From Halobacterium hubeiense (GTDB taxonomy: Archaea; Halobacteriota; Halobacteria; Halobacteriales; Halobacteriaceae), in assembly GCF_001488575.1 (NCBI RefSeq), contig NZ_LN831303.1, forward strand, positions 248,001 through 312,000: a stretch of 64,000 bases of DNA, in the 5' to 3' direction. The translations under genes and the position numbers were made by a program. The notes beneath the pieces were generated by a model. The model had not been told where the DNA came from. It saw only the letters and a program-made list of their open reading frames with translations, and did no database searches. Each line of letters begins with the position of its first letter. The first letter of the stretch is position 1. Below, in pieces: positions 692 to 12,613 of the stretch.

Positions 692-3385
692 CTAAGAGCT
701 ATTTTCGCCTAGTGAGTTATCTACCACATACAGTTCATATGAGGGAAGGTCGAATGAAGCTGTATTCTGTCCGTCTTTGCTTCTAAATTTTATTTCAGTC
801 CACACCTCACCACCGGTTGGATCGAATCCATCTAACCGATACTTGTTCTCACCATCCATCAGATGGATCACTTGCTCATGATCTGGCTTACCATCCCCTG
901 TTACGTCTTGTTTCACTGTTGCTTCTAACGCTGTATTCTTCGGGATATCTGCCCCCAGATTAATCGCAACCGGACGTGATGAGACACTTTGTTTCTTTGT
1001 CTCAACGGAGAGGTTTTGAGGATATTTGGGGATTTCTATATTTGCACCTTTGTACTCTTCGGGATTTATCGACCGAGCAATTGACAAATGCCTTTCTCCC
1101 TCTTCTGCTTGGTTTAGTTCTTCTTTAAGAAAGGTGCCGTACTCATAGTGAATATCGGCATTCTGCGGCTCCAATTGCAGTGCCGATTCAAAGTGTTGTT
1201 TGGCTTCCTGAGACTCCGAAAATTCGTCATTTAGAAGGTTTGCATAATTCAAATGTGCCAACGTATGGCTGGGGTCAATTGATAATGACCTCTCAAAGTG
1301 TTGCTTTGCTTCTGTAGGCCGATTAAGATCTTCCTTCAGCAGAACACCGTAATTATTGTGTGCCGGTGCATGATTAGAATGCTCTTTCAGCGTTTTCTTA
1401 TAGTATTCTTCAGCTTCTTCTGGCCTATCAAGGTCCCTGTGTAACACTAATCCAAGATTGTAAAGTGCTTCCACAAATTCAGAATCAAGTTCTAAAGCTC
1501 GTCGGTAGTAATCTGCAGCAGCTTCTGGACGGCCTAATGACTGTTGAAGTAATAGGGCATAGCTATAGTATGCCTCCAGAAATTCTGGATCGTACTCAAT
1601 TGCTTTACGTAAATGGATCTCAGCTTCTGTTGGATTGCCCTGATGCTTTGCGAGCAATAGTCCATAGTTGAAGTGAACCTCGGGAAATGTGGGATCCAGA
1701 TCTAATGCCGCTTTCCATTGATCTATCGCTAATGAGATACGGCCCCATTTCGAGAACGCAGCCCCGGCATTCAGGTGAGCTATCGGCTGTGTATATGTAG
1801 GCAACGACTCCTCCTCTGATAGAAGCACATCAGACAATTCTGAAGCATCGTCACGAGCACGGACCTGAATTGCTTCAAGTTGTATGTCGTGGATATAATA
1901 CTGTGTTTGGCGAGAAACGAGATCCTTTCCCCGAATATCTATCCATTGTCTTTTTTCTTTAAGTTTCTCAACAGACTTACGAAATCGTCCTCGGTCACCA
2001 CTTAGCAGTTCAAGGTAGATTGTACGGACGAGCTTAGAATAATACGGTAAATTTAGATCATACAATAACTTCATCGATGCTAATACATACCATTCGTCTC
2101 TTGAATCTGATTGAAGTGCTTCATACTGTATACGCCAGAGATCTTCAACATTATCTGGTAAAGCCTCTACATCGCTAATAGTGAGTTCGTCGTCGGTAGT
2201 TCCGAGTACGGCATCAATATAAATCGGTGCAGAGCGAGAAGCGGTTTGGTCAATTAAGGCTTCAAGCACTTCATTGGTTGCTGACACATCGTATTTGTCT
2301 GCCATCCGAACTGCGAGATCGTGTATGAAATCAAGACTTACATTTTCGACCCTTAGTTCCTCAAAATCATACCAGACACTTTGTTCGTCGTCAAATGAAG
2401 CAGGAAGATTTCCGGGTACATTGTGGAGTTGTCCTGATCGTGCCTCCAACAGTGCGTATAGAGTATGCCCATTCGAATTGAGAGTGTGTGACAGTTCATG
2501 TATGGTTGATTCAAGAACTAGACTCTCTCCTCCTTCGTCTATTCGGTGAATGTCTTCCCAAACGAGTAGCACATCTCCGGTAAATTCTTCGCGTGTGATT
2601 CCTTTTACATCAGCAGAATCAAGCATTCGTTCATCAGGCAGCAAAATGTGATCGACCGAATCCTCAGGGAGACGATTGATAAAAGCAGATAAGATACGTG
2701 TTTTTCCCGCACCAGATGGCCCGACGACTACATATCTACCGGGGTCTGGGTTCTTGGGAACTTCCTGCCTGTCAACAAATTCTATAGCATTTTCTGGCAG
2801 GAGCGTACTTATCACACTTTCCCGGTCTTCAGGGAATGAGTAAAGGGTGTACGGGCGTCGGTACGCGAGTTGATCGAATTCCTCCCGAATCGCAGCCAAT
2901 TCGTCAAGAGCATCAACCTGAAATTCAGCCTGAAGTTGCCGGGACAGTTCTTCATTTTGGATGACTCGATCACGAAAATCGTCAACGACGTTCCGAAACT
3001 CCTCACTCAATAGTTTTTTGAGCTCCTCATTCGCTTCCTTGTCTAAATTCACATCTTCGACTTTATTGATTTCTTCAATTAGCCAGGTGACGGCTTCTTC
3101 CTCAGATTCGAACACAATTTCTGTAAAATCAATCTGCTCAGCGACTATGTCCCAATGGAATGCTAAAGACTGTAGTTCAAGATGATCCAAGTCTTTAGCT
3201 CGGCTCTTAATCCGGTCAATCAAAGAGCGATTGAACTCGGCCGCAAGCTGCCCGAACTCGTCGTTTATTTGGGTGTTCCGTGTTACCTCGTCTAGTTTCT
3301 CATGCACATCCGATTTGGTGGGAACTGTTCGGTTAGCGAGTACAGAAAAGAGAACCGGCGCTATTTCCAAACCAGTCATTGACAT
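692..3385 (-). CDS. STAND-like P-loop NTPase with C-terminal TPR repeats
   Basis: A large (897 aa) cytoplasmic protein. Residues 1-200 are helical and charged with no motif I recognise. A Walker A loop GPSGAGKT sits at 222-229 and a Walker B strand DVLLVWED at about 271-278. An all-helical region (300-520) follows, then about seven tetratricopeptide repeats (540-790; consensus A..NYG.LL......EA...F..AL.LDP). The last 100 residues look like a beta domain with a calcium-like DVTGDGKPD loop. NTPase plus repeat sensor is the architecture of STAND proteins, many of which are anti-phage. The reaction of the N-terminal part is unknown. The gene is much more AT-rich than the flanking transposase, suggesting transfer. 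ATG 3385 is used; ATG 3379 is two codons downstream and equally possible. Confidence 0.6.
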   Translation of the reverse strand: MSMTGLEIAPVLFSVLANRTVPTKSDVHEKLDEVTRNTQINDEFGQLAAEFNRSLIDRIKSRAKDLDHLELQSLAFHWDIVAEQIDFTEIVFESEEEAVTWLIEEINKVEDVNLDKEANEELKKLLSEEFRNVVDDFRDRVIQNEELSRQLQAEFQVDALDELAAIREEFDQLAYRRPYTLYSFPEDRESVISTLLPENAIEFVDRQEVPKNPDPGRYVVVGPSGAGKTRILSAFINRLPEDSVDHILLPDERMLDSADVKGITREEFTGDVLLVWEDIHRIDEGGESLVLESTIHELSHTLNSNGHTLYALLEARSGQLHNVPGNLPASFDDEQSVWYDFEELRVENVSLDFIHDLAVRMADKYDVSATNEVLEALIDQTASRSAPIYIDAVLGTTDDELTISDVEALPDNVEDLWRIQYEALQSDSRDEWYVLASMKLLYDLNLPYYSKLVRTIYLELLSGDRGRFRKSVEKLKEKRQWIDIRGKDLVSRQTQYYIHDIQLEAIQVRARDDASELSDVLLSEEESLPTYTQPIAHLNAGAAFSKWGRISLAIDQWKAALDLDPTFPEVHFNYGLLLAKHQGNPTEAEIHLRKAIEYDPEFLEAYYSYALLLQQSLGRPEAAADYYRRALELDSEFVEALYNLGLVLHRDLDRPEEAEEYYKKTLKEHSNHAPAHNNYGVLLKEDLNRPTEAKQHFERSLSIDPSHTLAHLNYANLLNDEFSESQEAKQHFESALQLEPQNADIHYEYGTFLKEELNQAEEGERHLSIARSINPEEYKGANIEIPKYPQNLSVETKKQSVSSRPVAINLGADIPKNTALEATVKQDVTGDGKPDHEQVIHLMDGENKYRLDGFDPTGGEVWTEIKFRSKDGQNTASFDLPSYELYVVDNSLGENSS

Positions 3386-3436: not shown

Positions 3437-5263
3437 CTAATGACTGGTGCCTTGTGAAAACCAAGAAGAATCTAATGTTTCTGGCGGATCAGCAAGATCT
3501 AACGTCACTTCATCGTCCTCGAACGCGCGGGTGAATCTGTTCGCCTTGACGAAGTTCTCCGAACTCAAATCATGATCCAGTTCCTCGGCACCCAGCACGT
3601 TCGCTACCGTCCACATGTTGTACATGAGGACGGCGAACTTGAAGTAGAACATCCGGGTCGCTAGCCGGGGCGATCCCGACTGCGCCAAGAAGTCGTTCTT
3701 GAGCTTCCGGTAACTCGTCTCGACCCCCCAGCGGTTGCGAAAGTCGGTGGCCAGCTCCAACGGGTCGACGTCGTCGTCATCAAGCGGGATATTCGTGTAG
3801 AAGATGATCCAGTTGTCGGTCGGATCATCGGGTTCACCCTGACGAAGTCGTGACCGCTTCTGGGACTTCACAGTGAACAACCAGTGCTTCTCGTCGTCGA
3901 TCCCGCCGAGGCCGTGAGGCACCGCTTCAGCCTCACTCTCCTTGGCAACTGCGAGCCGCTGGAGCCCCTCGATCTTCTGACCCGTGTCCGGGGCCTGGAT
4001 GATGAACCCCGTCCCGGTCGACTCGAGCGCACGCACCGAGTCAGTGGTATAGAATCCACTGTCCAGGTAGGCCCGGTTGAACGACGTCACCTGCGCGGCG
4101 TACCGGAGCAGCCGGCGCACGAGCGTTCCCTTGTCGGTGTCTGCCCGCGTCGGGACGGCTCGCATCGTCATCGGCGTGTTCGTGCCGACGAGAGCGAGCG
4201 TGGTGAACTGCCACGAGTAGTAGAAGTTCCGCTGGGGCTTCGTCTTCTGGATGTCTCGGCTGGCGTCACCCTGTCCGTACCACCCCCAGTCCGTACTGTC
4301 GATGGCGACCTCGTTGGTGTCGTCGAAGTACTCGTGCTCGAAAGCGATGTCGAACAGGGCACCGTTGGCCTGTCGGAACATTCGCGTGACGGTGTCTGGG
4401 TCGAACTTCAGAAGCTGGTGCCGGACGTTACTCGGGTCGACCGAGTTATCCGCGCCGATCCACGGCTTCAACTCCATGTTCTCACACGCCTGGTTCATGT
4501 GGATGTCGTGGATCGCCGCGCTAACGAATACCCGCAGGAGGAAGTCCCGCTTGAAGCTGATACTGTCGTCGCGGTCGAAGCTGAGGTGTCGGAAGACTTC
4601 AGCTCGGAGTTCACGGCTGAGCCTCTTGATGTACGGTGGCTTCCGTTCCTCAGTGTCCGGCGACGGCAGATCAGCGAACTGGTCGGCGTAGTGAGAGTCC
4701 TTGATGGCAGTGAGGACCTGCGCGACGACGCGGTCAAAATACCGCATCTGCCGTTCGGTCAGCCGATCGCCGAGCCGGTTCAGCGTGGGTTGGCTCACCG
4801 TCTCCGTGACTTTCAGCCGGTCCCGGAACTCAGCGTCATCTAGGTTCTTCGCCACATCCGTCTCCGATTCATCGGTCAGCCGGAGGTAGAGGTACACGCG
4901 GAAAAACTCCAGCGCGTCGAGTTTGCGCGAGAGGTCCTCGTGTTCCTCGACGCCGATGAAGAGATCCCGCAGCGGGAGCCGGCCAATCGCGCGGGCGAGA
5001 TCGCCGTCGGCCCAGTGGATGGCGGCGTAGAGCGCCTGCGGGAGGTTCACCCCCTCGTAGGGCGGGTCGTCGCCGGGGACCAGCGGGGCAGCACCCCAGT
5101 CGCCGTCCTCGAGGTAGTACGACTCGGGGAACTGGCCTGCTTCGGAGACTCGGACCACGTCGTCGTTCTCGTCGAGGTCGCCGGGAAACCAGTCGGTATC
5201 GACGAACGCCCCGCGGGCGAAGTGGTAGAGTTCCGTTTGGTTCTCGTCGGATTCGTCGCTCAT
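3437..5263 (-). CDS. DDE transposase, IS4-like
   Basis: A 608-aa transposase. The catalytic triad is visible: D322 in AIDSTDW, D401 in AYLDSGFY and E515 in RWGVETSYRKLKND, the last being the YREK-type signature of IS4-like enzymes. The N-terminal 200 residues are acidic and specific to the haloarchaeal branch. Length and an unbroken frame suggest an active enzyme. Its ATG overlaps the stop of the small gene upstream by 4 bases, so the two are cotranscribed. I could not find convincing terminal inverted repeats, so element borders are not given. GC content resembles the host rather than the AT-rich gene beyond it. Confidence 0.8.
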   Translation of the reverse strand: MSDESDENQTELYHFARGAFVDTDWFPGDLDENDDVVRVSEAGQFPESYYLEDGDWGAAPLVPGDDPPYEGVNLPQALYAAIHWADGDLARAIGRLPLRDLFIGVEEHEDLSRKLDALEFFRVYLYLRLTDESETDVAKNLDDAEFRDRLKVTETVSQPTLNRLGDRLTERQMRYFDRVVAQVLTAIKDSHYADQFADLPSPDTEERKPPYIKRLSRELRAEVFRHLSFDRDDSISFKRDFLLRVFVSAAIHDIHMNQACENMELKPWIGADNSVDPSNVRHQLLKFDPDTVTRMFRQANGALFDIAFEHEYFDDTNEVAIDSTDWGWYGQGDASRDIQKTKPQRNFYYSWQFTTLALVGTNTPMTMRAVPTRADTDKGTLVRRLLRYAAQVTSFNRAYLDSGFYTTDSVRALESTGTGFIIQAPDTGQKIEGLQRLAVAKESEAEAVPHGLGGIDDEKHWLFTVKSQKRSRLRQGEPDDPTDNWIIFYTNIPLDDDDVDPLELATDFRNRWGVETSYRKLKNDFLAQSGSPRLATRMFYFKFAVLMYNMWTVANVLGAEELDHDLSSENFVKANRFTRAFEDDEVTLDLADPPETLDSSWFSQGTSH

Positions 5264-5439
5264 TCGTCACAAACCGCCTCTCGGAGTTCCTCGTACAGAT
5301 CTGGGTGATTCTTCTTCAGAATCTCGGCATCGGTTTCCAGCTCGCTGATTCGTTGCCGCACGCGTGAAGCGGACTCGTACCGCTTGCTGTCGGCGACGTC
5401 TACCTCTCCGCTGATACGGTCACGATCTGTCTTAGTCAT
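5260..5439 (-). CDS. Small charged protein upstream of transposase
   Basis: A 59-aa charged, helical protein (MTKTDRDRISGEVDVADSK..) ending in LREAVCDE. Its stop overlaps the transposase start (ATGA), so it is translationally coupled and may be an accessory or regulatory protein of the element. In-frame ATGs at 5457 and 5478 would lengthen it. A TATAACC box on this strand at 5500-5494 would place the transcript start near 5472, which disfavours 5478. I do not recognise a family. Confidence 0.55.
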   Translation of the reverse strand: MTKTDRDRISGEVDVADSKRYESASRVRQRISELETDAEILKKNHPDLYEELREAVCDE

Positions 5440-5490
5440 GATTGCCGTAACTCCCATACCGCCATTCGTTGGTGGCATACAACTTAGACA

Positions 5491-5546
5491 TTAGGTTATA
5501 TCGCCATAAAGATTAGCTCATAGCACCACATTAGCTTATAACCTAA
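5491..5546. promoter_or_regulatory. Mirror-image divergent promoter pair
   Basis: A perfect 10-bp inverted repeat, TTAGGTTATA at 5491-5500 and TATAACCTAA at 5537-5546, places the same TATAACCTAA box facing outward on both strands, one toward the small gene/transposase pair and the other toward the HRAMP-like operon. Between the arms lie two near-identical direct copies, GATTAGCTCATA (5511-5522) and CATTAGCTTATA (5529-5540). The arrangement suggests shared control of the two divergent units. The assignment as a promoter is inferred from the archaeal TATA position, about 90-120 bases ahead of the plus-strand gene. Confidence 0.55.
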
Positions 5547-5580
5547 CCTTTATTGTCGCGGCGATACATGTCTCTGGTAA

Positions 5581-5642
5581 GAAGCACGGGACGCCGGTCA
5601 GAAGTTGGCCGGGACGGGTTGCAGCCCGTCCGACCGTGCTTC
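5581..5642 (+). ncRNA. Predicted three-way-junction RNA in HRAMP-like leader
   Basis: A 62-nt segment folds by eye into a closed three-way junction. A perfect 9-bp closing stem pairs GAAGCACGG (5581-5589) with CCGTGCTTC (5634-5642). Hairpin 1 pairs 5595-5600 with 5606-5611 around a GAAGT loop. Hairpin 2 pairs GGACGGG (5612-5618) with CCCGTCC (5625-5631) around TTGCAG. It lies within the expected 5' leader of the operon, downstream of the TATA box at about 5535-5541. Haloarchaeal mRNAs are mostly leaderless, so a long, tightly folded leader is unusual. It could be a cis regulator, a processed RNA bound by the RAMP proteins, or part of a mobile end. There is no homology evidence. Confidence 0.5.
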
Positions 5643-5655
5643 GTGGAGACGAAGC
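5638..5655 (+). promoter_or_regulatory. Alternative start-site hairpin with GGAG in loop
   Basis: GCTTCGT (5638-5644) pairs perfectly with ACGAAGC (5649-5655), leaving the Shine-Dalgarno-like GGAG (5645-5648) in a four-base loop immediately before the ATG at 5656. The 5' arm shares 5638-5642 with the closing stem of the upstream three-way junction, so the two folds exclude each other. This is the layout of a translational switch. The reading is from base pairing only. Confidence 0.45.
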
Positions 5656-5868
5656 ATGTCAATGAAGACATCCGCCGGACTTCAGGATTCCGGCACGACG
5701 GACGAATCGACCACCGAAAACGTGGAAGCTGACCTCGATCTTGCGGAACTGATCGAGCAGCACGAAAACATCGACTGGAGCGACGTGCCAGGCATCAGTG
5801 CTGCGGAAGCCGGTGCGTGGACAGCACGTCTGATCGAGGCGCGCGACACGGTTCAGGAGGGTCTGTGA
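5656..5868 (+). CDS. Small acidic protein, first gene of HRAMP-like operon
   Basis: A 70-aa acidic protein with a disordered start (MSMKTSAGLQDSGTTDES) and a compact C-terminal half (DLAELIEQHENIDWSDVPGISAAEAGAW). The ATG at 5656 is preceded by GGAG in the hairpin loop. Its stop shares one base with the next start (TGATG), so it is coupled to the following gene. I do not recognise the family. Position suggests a small accessory subunit or regulator of the RAMP complex, but nothing in the sequence shows a reaction. Confidence 0.6.
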   Translation: MSMKTSAGLQDSGTTDESTTENVEADLDLAELIEQHENIDWSDVPGISAAEAGAWTARLIEARDTVQEGL

Positions 5869-6245
5869 TGCAGCGTCGTCAATTCCTCGCCGCGACCGCC
5901 GCCCTCGCTGCGCTCCCACAGGCCGCGACCGCTGACACGGGTCGCGCCGAGGAGATCGTCGAAGACCGGAGCGTCACCGACGACGGGACGTACTCGGTCA
6001 CGGACTGTGGCTCCGTTCCAGGCGGGCTGAACAACGTCCACGTCACAGCGGACATGAACGACGGCCCGCTCGAGGTCGAAGGCGTTCACGAAGAGAACGG
6101 CTGGAGCGGCGTCGGACTCCGGTGGAGGTCCGGCCCCATCGAGGTCGGCACCGGCCTCGAACCCGACGACGCCCGCGACCTCGCCGCCCGGCTGGTGGTC
6201 GCCGCCGATGCTGCCGAAGGCAACCTCGGTGGAGGTGACGCCTGA
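5868..6245 (+). CDS. Tat-signal-like small protein, HRAMP-like operon
   Basis: A 125-aa protein that begins MQRRQFLAATAALAALPQAATA, an arrangement like a haloarchaeal Tat signal (RRxFL, hydrophobic stretch, AxA-like end). The rest is acidic and ends in a helix with DARDLAARLVVAADAAEG. The last third resembles that of the next gene (G...L.., then a helix with ..A..LA..L...A), so the two are probably tandem paralogues. A strong GGAGG lies just upstream of ATG 5868. An exported protein in an RNA-binding operon would be odd; the hydrophobic start may instead be a cytoplasmic helix or a membrane anchor. Confidence 0.6.
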   Translation: MQRRQFLAATAALAALPQAATADTGRAEEIVEDRSVTDDGTYSVTDCGSVPGGLNNVHVTADMNDGPLEVEGVHEENGWSGVGLRWRSGPIEVGTGLEPDDARDLAARLVVAADAAEGNLGGGDA

Positions 6246-6640
6246 TGCAGCGCCGCGAGTTCCTGGAAACGGCCGCGGCGGTCGCCGGAGCAGCTGCCGG
6301 CGATGTCCCCGACATCGAGATCGCCGACCAGCAGAACCGTCTGCTGGAACTGGCAGATCGTGACGACGCCGAGCGGTGGGCCTACCAGACGACGCGCAAC
6401 CTCGCACACGTCCGCTCGGGGTTGGTGAATGCTGAACTCGACGCCCTGTGTGAGGAACCGACCGGCACCGTCGAAACCTACTCCGTCGGTCGCGGTGGCG
6501 TCCCGCTCGGCTTCGAGGTCAGTACCGACGACGATGAGTCCGTCGGGACGCTCGTGCATCTCTCCGCGGAACAGGCCGAGGCGCTGGCCGTCGACCTGCT
6601 GGAACAGGCGCACGCCGCGAGGGAGGAAGCCGATGAATAG
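6245..6640 (+). CDS. Paralogue of preceding small protein
   Basis: A 131-aa protein starting MQRREFLETAAAVAGAAAGD, near-identical in its first seven residues to the gene before it, followed by a weaker hydrophobic stretch that would make a poor Tat signal. The middle is helical (RNLAHVRSGLVNAELDAL), and the end contains GTLVHLSAEQAEALAVDLLEQ, matching the last third of the upstream protein. ATG overlaps the previous stop by one base (TGATG). Likely a duplicated, diverging accessory subunit. Function unknown. Confidence 0.6.
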   Translation: MQRREFLETAAAVAGAAAGDVPDIEIADQQNRLLELADRDDAERWAYQTTRNLAHVRSGLVNAELDALCEEPTGTVETYSVGRGGVPLGFEVSTDDDESVGTLVHLSAEQAEALAVDLLEQAHAAREEADE

Positions 6641-6761
6641 CCCCCGCATCACAGCCCGTATCGTCCGCACGGAGAACGGCGAGAACTACACGGAGTACCG
6701 CGTCGGCGGCGTTTCGTATCCCTCGGCTGAGGCGGTCGAAGCGGCGCTTGAAACACGCTAA
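6633..6761 (+). CDS. 42-aa protein between small paralogues and Cas7-like gene
   Basis: A short protein (MNSPRITARIVRTENGEN.. ending AVEAALETR) that starts at 6633, overlapping the previous gene by 8 bases, with GGGAGGAAG just upstream as a ribosome binding site. The sequence looks like a small beta-beta-alpha fold with a V/I-R-x-YRV pattern. Coupled translation, an excellent ribosome site and operon position support that it is real. No family recognised. Confidence 0.55.
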   Translation: MNSPRITARIVRTENGENYTEYRVGGVSYPSAEAVEAALETR

Positions 6762-6774
6762 CCCTCACAAAATT

Positions 6775-7638
6775 ATGATTGAAGACATCGACCGCGACGT
6801 GTTCGTACGGATTCAGACCGACCTACTGGTGGTCGGAGACAGCATCATGACTGACCGGCACCACGCCTCAAACGGCAACTACGAGGACGACGATCCGCAG
6901 AACCAGATCGGCGGCATCATCCCCGCCTTCCCGCTCTCGGGGTGGCTTCGTCACGGGATGGAGGAAACCGTTCAGGAGTACGGCGGAACGGCCTGCCATC
7001 CCGGAGAAGCCAACGCGAACTTCATGAAGGACGGCGTCTACGACCGCGACCTGGACGCCGGCTACCACGAGAAGGGCGCGTGTACCGACGACCCGAAGGA
7101 GGACGACGGCTGTGTGGTGTTCGACCTCTTCGGTGGCTTCGGTGGCGTCCCCGGCAAGGTGATGCGCCGCCCGATCAAGTTCAACCCTGTCCGTTCCAGC
7201 GTGGACTACACGCGCGGCCAGGCTGAGGGTCACTACCGCCGGCTCAACCGGAACGTCGTCTCCCGCAATCGGGAGGACAACCGTGAACCGCTGCGGAACG
7301 CGGAGATTGACGCCGTCGCCAACCTCGATGGCTGCTGGCACCTCTCCTTCCGGGAGATGAAGCCGGAGTTCATCGGCCTGCTGGCCGAAGGCATCGACTT
7401 CCTCGATGCTCACAAGACGGACTTCATGCACCAGCTGGGCGGTGCCCGCAACTTCGGTGCGGGGATCGTCGACTGCGAGCTCATCAACCCGCTCTACGAG
7501 GAGCGCGAACTGAAGCGCGTCTTCGACCGCGGGAAAGGCAACACGAACGCGATGGGCGAGAAGGACGACCAGTGGGCCGAAGAGTACCGCCCGGCGTTCG
7601 TCGACGCGCTCGAGGAGCGCATCGAGGAGGGACCATGA
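6775..7638 (+). CDS. Cas7-like RAMP protein (HRAMP-type)
   Basis: A 287-aa protein with the order of motifs seen in Cas7/Csm3-type backbone subunits: an N-terminal strand with polar loop (VGDSIMTDRHH, 20-30), IPAFPLSGWLR (49-59) corresponding to the 'IPGSSLRGALR' helix start, GCVVFDLFGGFG (112-123) corresponding to 'CPVCRLFGS', and a glycine-rich loop LGGARNFGAG (221-230) near the end. Family members bind crRNA along the effector filament. ATG 6775 is chosen because the upstream TTG at 6748 would overlap the previous gene. It is coupled by ATGA to the next gene. No cas1, cas2, cas3, cas10 or array is present, which matches the derived haloarchaeal HRAMP system rather than a standard subtype. 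It could also be called a type IV or III-like relative. Confidence 0.65.
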   Translation: MIEDIDRDVFVRIQTDLLVVGDSIMTDRHHASNGNYEDDDPQNQIGGIIPAFPLSGWLRHGMEETVQEYGGTACHPGEANANFMKDGVYDRDLDAGYHEKGACTDDPKEDDGCVVFDLFGGFGGVPGKVMRRPIKFNPVRSSVDYTRGQAEGHYRRLNRNVVSRNREDNREPLRNAEIDAVANLDGCWHLSFREMKPEFIGLLAEGIDFLDAHKTDFMHQLGGARNFGAGIVDCELINPLYEERELKRVFDRGKGNTNAMGEKDDQWAEEYRPAFVDALEERIEEGP

Positions 7639-8375
7639 GCGATGACGCGATGGTGGCGGTCTACCGCCACGATGCGCACAAGATGAACGGCCAGCCTCAC
7701 GACTACGCCCCAGAGACGTTCGCAGGCGTTCCCGTGAACCAGACGGTCTCCCACGGCGCGGACGGTGATGCGTCGGCGCTCAGCCGGCCCAGCGGCCAGC
7801 CTGAGCAGACCGTCGAGAACCACGAGACACACTATCGGCTGTCGCTCATCGAGGGCGAGAGTCGGTACGACCCGCAGGAGTTCACGCGCAACGGCGTGGA
7901 GAGCGCCGTGAGAGAACTCCTGACCGAAGACGACCCAGAGACAATGCATCGGGCGTGGCTGGACAGCAACGTCGTCTCGGCGTTCACGGAGAGCGTCTAC
8001 TACCCGTACACGAGTCTGAAGTACCACACGCTCCTCGTGGCGGCGCTGCTGGACAACTACCGCGACGGCCACGAGTTCGCCGACCTCCGGCTGGTCGTCG
8101 ACGACGCCGACGAGATCGTCCCTCACCAGACGGTCTACGCGGGCGAGGAGTTCGCCCTGCGGATCGACGTCGACGCCCGAGGCCAGCCGTCGGCCCGCCT
8201 CGGAAGTCGCCCCTGGCGGTCGTGGGCGTCGGCGTGGAACCGCCTGGAGGCACACCCGCTGGATGCCGATCACGACAAGTACGACATGGTGCTGGACGCG
8301 AATCTCCGCCGGATCGGCGCGTGGTCGACCGCGCTCCAGTACATCGAGGACTTCCGGGAGGTGTTCGACCAGTGA
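7635..8375 (+). CDS. Unknown conserved subunit of HRAMP-like operon
   Basis: A 246-aa protein placed between the two RAMP genes, with both junctions overlapping by 4 bases (ATGA before, GTGA after), so the three products are probably made in fixed ratio. It has a central region YYPYTSLKYHTLLVAALLDNY that recalls the first helix of Cas5 proteins, followed by a beta-rich segment and a C-terminal helical part ending YIEDFREVFDQ. I cannot decide between a diverged Cas5 and the uncharacterised conserved protein described for HRAMP loci. No nuclease motif is visible. Confidence 0.6.
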   Translation: MSDDAMVAVYRHDAHKMNGQPHDYAPETFAGVPVNQTVSHGADGDASALSRPSGQPEQTVENHETHYRLSLIEGESRYDPQEFTRNGVESAVRELLTEDDPETMHRAWLDSNVVSAFTESVYYPYTSLKYHTLLVAALLDNYRDGHEFADLRLVVDDADEIVPHQTVYAGEEFALRIDVDARGQPSARLGSRPWRSWASAWNRLEAHPLDADHDKYDMVLDANLRRIGAWSTALQYIEDFREVFDQ

Positions 8376-9280
8376 CGCGCATCCAGCAAGTCCAGTGGGA
8401 GCTGGAGATGGACTACATCGGCCACCCGTACTACGTCTCGGGGAACGCGATCCTCCACGCACTCGGCCAGCACGTCCCGCACGACGTCCACCAGCACCTC
8501 CACGCCAGTCACGGGGTGTTCGTCCCCGGCCAGTTCGGGACGTTCCCCGAAGAGCACTCACAGAGCGGCATCCGACCGTACCTCGGGAGCGGGCTCCCGG
8601 ACGTCGAGAGCTACGATGACCTGTTCCTGATGCGGAACCCGGCCCATCGCTGGCTTCTCGACAGCCGTCCGCGAGACGCGCTGAACACCCACGACATCCG
8701 CCCGCAGAGCGGGCACCCGGCGCTGTCCCACGAGACGATCATGGGCAAGCCGGAGGACGCTCGCAAGCAGCAGCAGACGACGAAGTGGTACATCAACGCC
8801 TACCTGCACGCCGATGACCCCGATGCGCTCCCGCTGGGCGAGGACGTGCTTGACGGCCTCCAGTTCGGGGGCAAACGGAACTACGGCTACGGCATCACGC
8901 GGCTGAAGGACACGCAGGTTGTCGACCTCGACGATCTGGACTACTCCCGGCTCGAAGACGGCGAGGCCTTCCTCGTGGAGGTGACGACGCCGTTCGTGCT
9001 GGAGTCGGAGTACCCCAAGGCCGCCGACCAGGACGTCCCGTGGTGGTGGAAGGAGAGCCGACGCGATCTCCGTGAGCGAGAGGAGAAGATCCTCGAGCAA
9101 CGGGAGGTCTACAAGCTCCAAACCGTCGACCACGGGCAGGTCGTGAAGTACGAGGGCGACCGCCCCATCGAGACCGCGAAGAGCGGCATCCTTCGGGTCG
9201 GCAGTCACTCGAAGTACGGCTTCGGAGAGTTCCAAGTGAAGCCGGTCGAACCCCGGTCAGATCAGTGTAAGAACTCATAG
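8372..9280 (+). CDS. Two-lobed RAMP protein, Cas5/Cas6-like (HRAMP-type)
   Basis: A 302-aa protein starting at GTG 8372, overlapping the upstream stop. It shows two RAMP-like halves: the first ends in a glycine loop QFGGKRNYGYG (165-174), the second in VGSHSKYGFGEF (276-287), the classic Cas6/Cas5 C-terminal signature. Between them lies a helical, highly charged segment (220-250). Histidines cluster at 35-47 (HVPHDVHQHLHASH), so a Cas6-like RNA cleavage role cannot be excluded, but no catalytic assignment is possible by eye. It probably caps or processes the RNA partner of the complex. Last gene of the operon. Confidence 0.6.
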   Translation: MTRIQQVQWELEMDYIGHPYYVSGNAILHALGQHVPHDVHQHLHASHGVFVPGQFGTFPEEHSQSGIRPYLGSGLPDVESYDDLFLMRNPAHRWLLDSRPRDALNTHDIRPQSGHPALSHETIMGKPEDARKQQQTTKWYINAYLHADDPDALPLGEDVLDGLQFGGKRNYGYGITRLKDTQVVDLDDLDYSRLEDGEAFLVEVTTPFVLESEYPKAADQDVPWWWKESRRDLREREEKILEQREVYKLQTVDHGQVVKYEGDRPIETAKSGILRVGSHSKYGFGEFQVKPVEPRSDQCKNS

Positions 9281-9464
9281 AAGAACGGCGAAATAGCGGA
9301 GTGAGAAATCCGAACGATGACAGGTGAATCGGCGACTAAACATCACGCGGTTCCGTGAATAAAGAAATCGTATTCACAACAACTGATATCGACGAATGAG
9401 GGCCGATTTATCCACTTTTTCTTGTAGAATTTCGATATTAGGTATGGGGATTTCTTTGAGCCGA

Positions 9465-10614: not shown

Positions 10615-11175
10615 TCACTCAAGCAGGCCGAGTTCAGTGAGGCGGTCTTCGACGTGTTTCAGTGCGGACTGTGCATCCTCAGATTCATTTGCGCCAGTAA
10701 TGACGAGTTTCCCACTGCCGAAGAGGAGGACGACAACGTCGGGGTCGTCGAGACGATAGACGAGCCCGGGGAACTGTTCGGGTTCGTATTCGACTTGCTC
10801 TAAGCCCAGGCCGATCGCAATCGCGTTCAAGTTCAACGATTGTTCGAGACTCGCACTGGAGACGATATTCTGCACCGTAACAGAAGGATTGCTCGCAACA
10901 TCAATCCCTAACGCACGGAGGTCATCGAAGACGATTTCGAGGGCTTTGTGAACACCATCGACGCTTTGCGCGCCGGTGCAGACGACTTTCCCCGAGTCGA
11001 ATATCAGCGTGGCTGACTTCGGCTCCTGAAGGCGGTAGACAACCCCAGGGAAGTCCTCTGGATTGTACTCCGCGCCATTGAGGTCGATACCGAGCTGGTC
11101 AAGAGCGAGTTCCTGGCCGAGATCACTGGATGCAACAACGTTCTGGATTTCGATCGTGTCCGCCAGCGTGCTCAT
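10615..11175 (-). CDS. tbp: TATA-box-binding protein
   Basis: A 186-aa TBP with the usual two direct repeats: IEIQNVVASSDLGQELAL..FPGVVYRLQEPKSATLIFDSGKVVCTGA in the first half, and VTVQNIVSSASLEQ..FPGLVYRLDDPDVVVLLFGSGKLVITGA in the second. Each forms one half of the DNA-binding saddle that bends TATA boxes and recruits TFB and RNA polymerase. Haloarchaea often carry several tbp copies, some on plasmids. This copy sits alone between a pilin and a membrane protein, so it is probably an accessory copy. The acidic tail is short. Confidence 0.92.
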   Translation of the reverse strand: MSTLADTIEIQNVVASSDLGQELALDQLGIDLNGAEYNPEDFPGVVYRLQEPKSATLIFDSGKVVCTGAQSVDGVHKALEIVFDDLRALGIDVASNPSVTVQNIVSSASLEQSLNLNAIAIGLGLEQVEYEPEQFPGLVYRLDDPDVVVLLFGSGKLVITGANESEDAQSALKHVEDRLTELGLLE

Positions 11176-11393
11176 ACGCGGTATTCGTCGGACAAACTCT
11201 TAAATAGCAGGTGGAACTGTGTGGCGCTGGTAAGACCCTCAACGGCTAACTCGGCCTGAAACCTCCAAAGGCAGATCTCTCTCGCAGTGAATGCCCCCGC
11301 CGCTCACGGCGGAGAGAACGTCACTTATCTAGTGCATTGCCGCGGGCTTAATCCTCGAATGATTCAGCCCGCTCCGGCTAGAATCCTACTGCA

Positions 11394-12356: not shown

Positions 12357-12613
12357 GCTTCACAGAGGGGGCTACCATGCCCGATCTCATTAACAGTTGT
12401 TGCAAATACGATTGCTTTATTCGCGTGGACGGCGTCGTATGCCGCTCCACGCATAATTACTAGGTAACCACTGAATAACCAATCCCGTGTTTTCAACTAC
12501 TGATAAAGTAGATCATATTGCCAACAACTGTCACGGCACCGCTTGTCGGCCCCCTTCTCTTGGCGTTGTATTGGCTACTCGACGTTTATGTAGTTCCAGC
12601 AAAAGCACTCGGT

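Follow-up and report, generated by a model that had tools for sequence, protein, structure and literature searches.

A leader RNA with two alternative folds at the start codon of an HRAMP operon and of many other haloarchaeal operons, a candidate translation switch

The HRAMP operon and its surroundings

The window, i.e., the whole stretch of 64,000 nucleotides that was analysed, belongs to a 3.13-Mb haloarchaeal genome of four contigs and harbors an operon encoding the RAMP proteins R1 and R3 as well as the conserved HRAMP protein R2 (Table 1). The predicted fold of R1 matches Cas7 of type VII and type III systems (E 6e-7), and the structural support for R3 is weak, its predicted model being poor. 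With a Cas7-like and a Cas5-like protein the operon at 6748-9280 fits HRAMP as described previously (PMC8730458, PMC12669027). It also shares with HRAMP the absence of a CRISPR array, which the original prediction had named for HRAMP systems in general and which a repeat-array search confirmed for positions 1-25000 of the window. In contrast to the described systems, a DDE transposase adjoins where HRAMP "typically" has an HNH or PD-(D/E)xK nuclease, which is not a strict criterion (PMC12669027), and no match to either nuclease was found among the operon ORFs scanned.

The transposase is located head to head with the leader of the operon and is kept beside HRAMP in relatives. Inverted repeats of 35-58 bp, which exceed those in shuffled sequences, sit immediately beyond the transposase on one side and R3 on the other in L032, L041, L056/L066, L061, L103, and L160, with weaker ones in L049 and L102. 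The element of L032 (2860-8620) has terminal inverted repeats of which the inner 26 nt are perfect, and no clear target-site duplication was seen there, whereas the element of the window (3437-9383) keeps the right end only, the left end being lost. The matched terminal repeats around transposase, leader and HRAMP indicate that clade-1 HRAMP travels as a transposon, a link that could put the function of HRAMP in a new light. A weak copy (20/25) of the terminal-repeat motif is also present outside the HRAMP element. Beside the transposase, a gene encodes a protein of 897 aa in which an AAA/STAND-like NTPase region is combined with TPR repeats, and a TPR neighbor is likewise found in H. salinarum 91-R6 (L158). 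Moreover, a small divergent ORF, MTKTDRDRISGEVDVADSKRYES..., occupies the place taken in relatives by regulators of the wHTH, RHH or Phd type, and is a possible transcriptional regulator of the operon.

Table 1. Features of the leader, the operon and the neighboring genes (window coordinates)
Feature	Position	Strand	Basis or remark
Protein with NTPase region and TPR repeats	692..3385	-	
DDE transposase, ISH3/IS4-like	3437..5263	-	Pfam DDE_Tnp_1 6.8e-10; NCBIfam ISH3 1.3e-23
Small divergent ORF	5264..5441	-	
TATA-like promoter element TTTATTGT	5549..5556	+	32 nt 5' of P1a; sequence
Conserved RNA module, leader and first ~54 nt of first ORF	5577..5709	+	homology-block boundaries
P1, closing stem, 9 bp	5581-5589/5634-5642	+	
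P1a, 5' strand of closing stem	5581..5589	+	sequence, fold, covariation
P2 hairpin, purine-rich loop	5595..5611	+	5595-5600/5606-5611; pairs switch GC/CG/UG/UA among copies
P3 hairpin, loop mostly nUGnnr	5612..5631	+	5612-5619/5624-5631; fold, covariation
P1b, switching strand	5634..5642	+	partner P1a or, via 5638-5644, P4b
P4 hairpin, 7 bp	5638-5644/5649-5655	+	immediately 5' of ATG 5656
GGAG, Shine-Dalgarno-like, P4 loop	5645..5648	+	sequence
P4b, strand next to start codon	5649..5655	+	covariation, geometry
First ORF of operon, 70 aa	5656..5868	+	no family match
P5 hairpin, codons 7-13 of first ORF	5674..5694	+	5674-5679/5689-5694
R1, Cas7-like RAMP protein	6748..7638	+	PADLOC Csm3 E 5e-4; predicted fold
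R2, conserved HRAMP protein	7632..8375	+	no family match
R3, Cas5/Cmr3-like RAMP protein	8387..9280	+	PADLOC Cmr3 E 2.8e-6
Right terminal inverted repeat of HRAMP transposon	9353..9383	-	left copy missing in window
Weak copy of terminal-repeat motif	12402..12426		

Two folds of the leader and their covariation

The leader can fold in two ways. When P1b pairs with P1a, the result is P1 as the closing stem of a three-way junction, P1(P2,P3); when it pairs with the bases that abut the AUG, P4 is formed. Both folds were found exactly where they had been predicted, with every named pair, and they are mutually exclusive as proposed since the five bases 5638-5642 are part of P1 as well as of P4. The minimum-energy fold of the 141 nt from 5540 to 5680 includes P1-P3 (-61.1 kcal/mol, z = -3.8), with one of 200 shuffled sequences folding as well; when the leader of the window is constrained to one state, the energies are -38.9 for the P1 state and -36.2 for the P4 state.

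The original prediction had made its case dependent on conservation or covariation of the stems among related loci. Both are present, for both folds, in about 125 distinct haloarchaeal leaders, and the claim therefore survives. In 22 HRAMP leaders 87.5% of the possible pairs of P1-P3 are formed, compared to 37-42% in slid controls, and nine pairs have changed on both sides. For 78 distinct non-HRAMP copies, the alignment of which was fitted to the structure, the values are 90.5% versus 30-52%, and 98 cells show a double change (33 in shuffles). P4 is paired to 90.9% (29-49% when slid), and P4b tracks P1b through the variants GCUGUC/GACAGC, GCUCC/GGAGC, GCUUUC/GAAAGC, and GGGUUC/GAACCC. In contrast to the alignments A2 and A3, which had been fitted to the structure of the model, the test of pairs that belong to P4 only involved no such fitting: it used the raw sequences of leaders with the common GCUUC/GAAGC core and asked for the pair that follows P1b on its outer side. 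This pair is complementary (GC, CG, UA) in 41 of 43 non-redundant leaders, while 2000 shuffles gave 19.8 on average and 29 at most. The tests of geometry and strand were run on raw sequences as well, because plain MAFFT aligns P2 and P3 poorly. As P1-P3 and P4 covary, the P4-only pairs doing so independently, both folds are under selection, and the same architecture is found at the same distance to the ATG in HRAMP and non-HRAMP operons.

The borders of the conserved module allow a further reading, namely that the leader is a folded single-stranded DNA recombination site which, like integron attC, exchanges gene cassettes. The homology extends over 5577-5709 with L004/L032, over 5578-5697 with L012/L060 and from 5574 onward with L027, and the flanks differ. 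Since such blocks start exactly at P1a or exactly at the ATG, the module is exchanged as a unit, and as in attC the structure is retained while the sequence drifts and different, exchangeable genes follow the same leader. However, G.U pairs outnumber A.C mismatches in P1 by 53 to 9, so that selection acts on the transcribed RNA strand, and the leader's G.U-rich pairing, the fixed spacing of its TATA-like element and its strict adjacency to the start codon all point to RNA. A DNA recombination site was rejected on this strand test and is considered very unlikely.

Occurrence of the RNA and its client genes

A blastn search of relatives identified by R1 found the leader 5' of HRAMP in many genera, and diverged copies were recovered by a repeat logic, in which P1b must be complementary to both a 5' strand and the strand before the ATG. 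In this way the leader of L089 (GAGAACCCG...CGGGTTCTC...GAACCC-ATG) was found, where sequence similarity is gone. According to the covariance model or the P1/P4 pattern, the RNA is present at 46 of 57 intact, non-duplicate HRAMP loci with enough upstream sequence, i.e., at about 80% of the loci of both clades, including the clade with an R1 of no more than 55-61% identity. Which ORF comes first behind the leader varies between HRAMP loci, and in L081 it is the Cas7-like R1 itself.

The RNA is not specific for HRAMP. The covariance model built from the HRAMP leaders detected it in 180 of 392 Halobacteria genomes (E 0.01 or better), a number in which distant copies are undercounted due to the training set. 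R1 is found in 105 genomes and together with the RNA in 61, where 48 are expected, which is a mild co-occurrence. Most copies precede genes that are unrelated to HRAMP, always directly before the first codon, and they reside on chromosomes, plasmids, and viral contigs (four loci on the latter). The clients comprise type IIG restriction enzymes (L200, L216), Mrr-type endonucleases (L145, L194), LAGLIDADG homing endonucleases (L150-L153, L165), an HNH endonuclease (L205), PD-(D/E)XK/SF1 helicase-nucleases (L144, L181, L198), a tyrosine integrase recognized by eye (L224), as well as SWIM and small zinc-finger ORFs, with no obvious metabolic theme in common.

These data bear on the suggestion, also part of the original prediction, that the leader is processed into a trans-acting guide or scaffold RNA that is bound by the Cas7/Cas5-like complex of HRAMP. 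The high frequency of the RNA at HRAMP loci of both clades would agree with such a role, as would the RNA-binding Cas7 fold, the missing CRISPR array nearby and the position of the Cas7-like gene as first ORF in L081. However, 119 of the 180 RNA-bearing genomes lack an R1 homolog, the association of both is mild, most copies stand before other genes, P5 lies inside codons, and the stems vary freely while a spacer-like variable segment was not seen. A guide specific for HRAMP was thus given up as the principal reading once the genomes had been searched with the model, and we regard a trans-acting RNA as distinctly unlikely. As the RNA precedes many non-HRAMP genes, a cis-acting switch at the start codon is favored instead, and the result indicates where not to seek the guide of HRAMP.

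Rfam 15 gave no match for the leaders of the window, L089, L096, L151, L153, and L169. Phage records contained no real match, two Stenotrophomonas hits covering 25% at E 0.03, and among the matches listed for the phylum sample none lies outside the haloarchaeal order. A weak antisense match of the model to the leader itself (5567-5644, minus strand, 18.6 bits, E 0.28) was taken as an artefact of the palindromic stems.

Several individual copies were observed besides. The genome of the window carries a second one (G000:C1:1091935-1092011; L156 6936-7012) directly before a gene for a 177-aa SWIM zinc-finger protein. On pNRC200 of H. salinarum NRC-1 (L157, NC_002608.1 213729-225855) the RNA, at 219729-219855 before VNG_RS11530, precedes a degraded HRAMP consisting of R3 and a remnant of R2, and this locus adjoins genes for a transposase, a Phd/YefM antitoxin and wHTH proteins. 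A plasmid of Halocatena marina has three copies in a stretch of 1.4 kb, one of them inverted with respect to the other two, and each stands before its own ORF (L161 6002-7345; same region in L154). On the viral contig L222 the RNA (11174-11252) is antisense between virion genes and precedes a short ORF of 16 codons. The end of this ORF agrees with that of the L224 integrase, and it is apparently what is left of a deleted integrase gene. In L205, from position 3087, RNA and HNH endonuclease gene lie directly 5' of trpDFE-like genes, perhaps after a recent insertion.

The leader as a putative switch of translation

Within 113 leaders P4 has 6.6 bp on average and in 103 cases directly borders the start codon (0 nt between them), and P1 and P4 overlap by at least 4 nt in 111. 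The two states are near iso-energetic, with E(P1)-E(P4) = -1.5 +/- 2.6 kcal/mol, and P1 is the favored one in 79 of the leaders. The best TATA-like octamer is located 29-34 nt 5' of P1a in 58 of 79 non-HRAMP copies. Given a TATA-like element about 32 nt before P1, the transcript should start at P1. Of 114 leaders, 49 have a Shine-Dalgarno-like 4-mer in the interval from P1b to the AUG, compared to 21 in shuffles; such a sequence is missing in more than half of the leaders and, where present, lies in the loop and not in the stem of P4.

From the covariation of both folds, the contact of P4 with the start codon and the similar energies we infer, as the original prediction had done in its first alternative, an effect on translation. 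Thus, the leader is rather probably a cis-acting bistable mRNA element that governs translation initiation of the first gene and is a module common to many operons. Transcription would begin at P1, which would be the first to fold as the RNA is transcribed and would close the P1/P2/P3 junction, leaving the surroundings of the AUG free (ON). If instead the 3' strand of P1 paired with the nucleotides that immediately precede the AUG, P4 would cover the initiation region (OFF). With so little energy between the states, the balance could be tipped by a small molecule, a protein or the ribosome binding as a partner to the three-way junction; since P1 is mostly favored, the OFF state may be rare without such a partner. 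The same leader would then be a shared control module of many haloarchaeal mobile-element and defence operons, with HRAMP as one client. It is a more tentative idea that a single undescribed switch family forms the shared regulon leader of HRAMP, restriction enzymes, homing endonucleases, the integrase and SWIM proteins and licenses translation upon one common cellular or infection signal.

The preference for P1 in most copies and the location at the extreme 5' end might also suggest a constitutive structure that stabilizes or insulates the mRNA without switching. This leaves unexplained why the P4-only pairs covary independently, why P4 reaches exactly to the start codon and why the energies are so similar, and we deem it unlikely. 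Mutually exclusive folds are furthermore the usual anatomy of transcription attenuators, in which one fold stops RNA polymerase. As neither fold is followed by a U-run and P4 stays linked to the AUG whatever the context, attenuation is extremely improbable.

The proposed switch of translation resembles translational riboswitches, which are bistable 5' leaders as well and in which the helix that closes the junction can give its 3' strand to another helix at the start codon. Like a riboswitch, the leader has a conserved structure and an alternative, mutually exclusive expression helix. It differs in widely varying peripheral stems, a hairpin in the coding region, the lacking Rfam match and clients without a metabolic theme. 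Leaders that are autoregulated by proteins, of the ribosomal-protein type, are similar in being structured, in having hairpins around the AUG and in being shared by several operons, whereas the clients here are mobile-element and defence genes. Also in contrast to HRAMP as described, the RNA is not confined to it. The leader therefore seems to represent a translation-switch family not described before and not a component peculiar to HRAMP. In Archaea the fluoride riboswitch of Thermococcus kodakarensis is a natural example and, according to a publication of 2021, the only experimentally determined one (PMC8241225). Haloarchaeal mRNAs are mostly leaderless and control by structured leaders was judged "not typical" there (PMC4983044), and synthetic riboswitches that mask the Shine-Dalgarno sequence and the AUG work in Haloferax volcanii (PMC8241225). 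If the proposed function is true, a family of RNAs whose two exclusive folds covary, present in nearly half of the haloarchaeal genomes sampled, would represent a broad new layer of archaeal control and a single handle on many mobile and defence operons.

The hairpin P5 inside the first ORF was not part of the original prediction. In non-redundant copies its loop is centered about 28 nt into the ORF, at one fixed position. A P5 of at least 4 bp is found in 28% of non-redundant leaders versus 4% of codon-shuffled ones, and one of at least 5 bp in 22% versus 1%. P5 would be at the leading edge of the initiating ribosome and probably aids ribosome positioning or belongs to the binding site. The compensatory changes in its stem (SAG/SGT in the window, SGG/SAT in L062, TRE/EFA in L004) alter the encoded protein, and thus it is the RNA that is kept.
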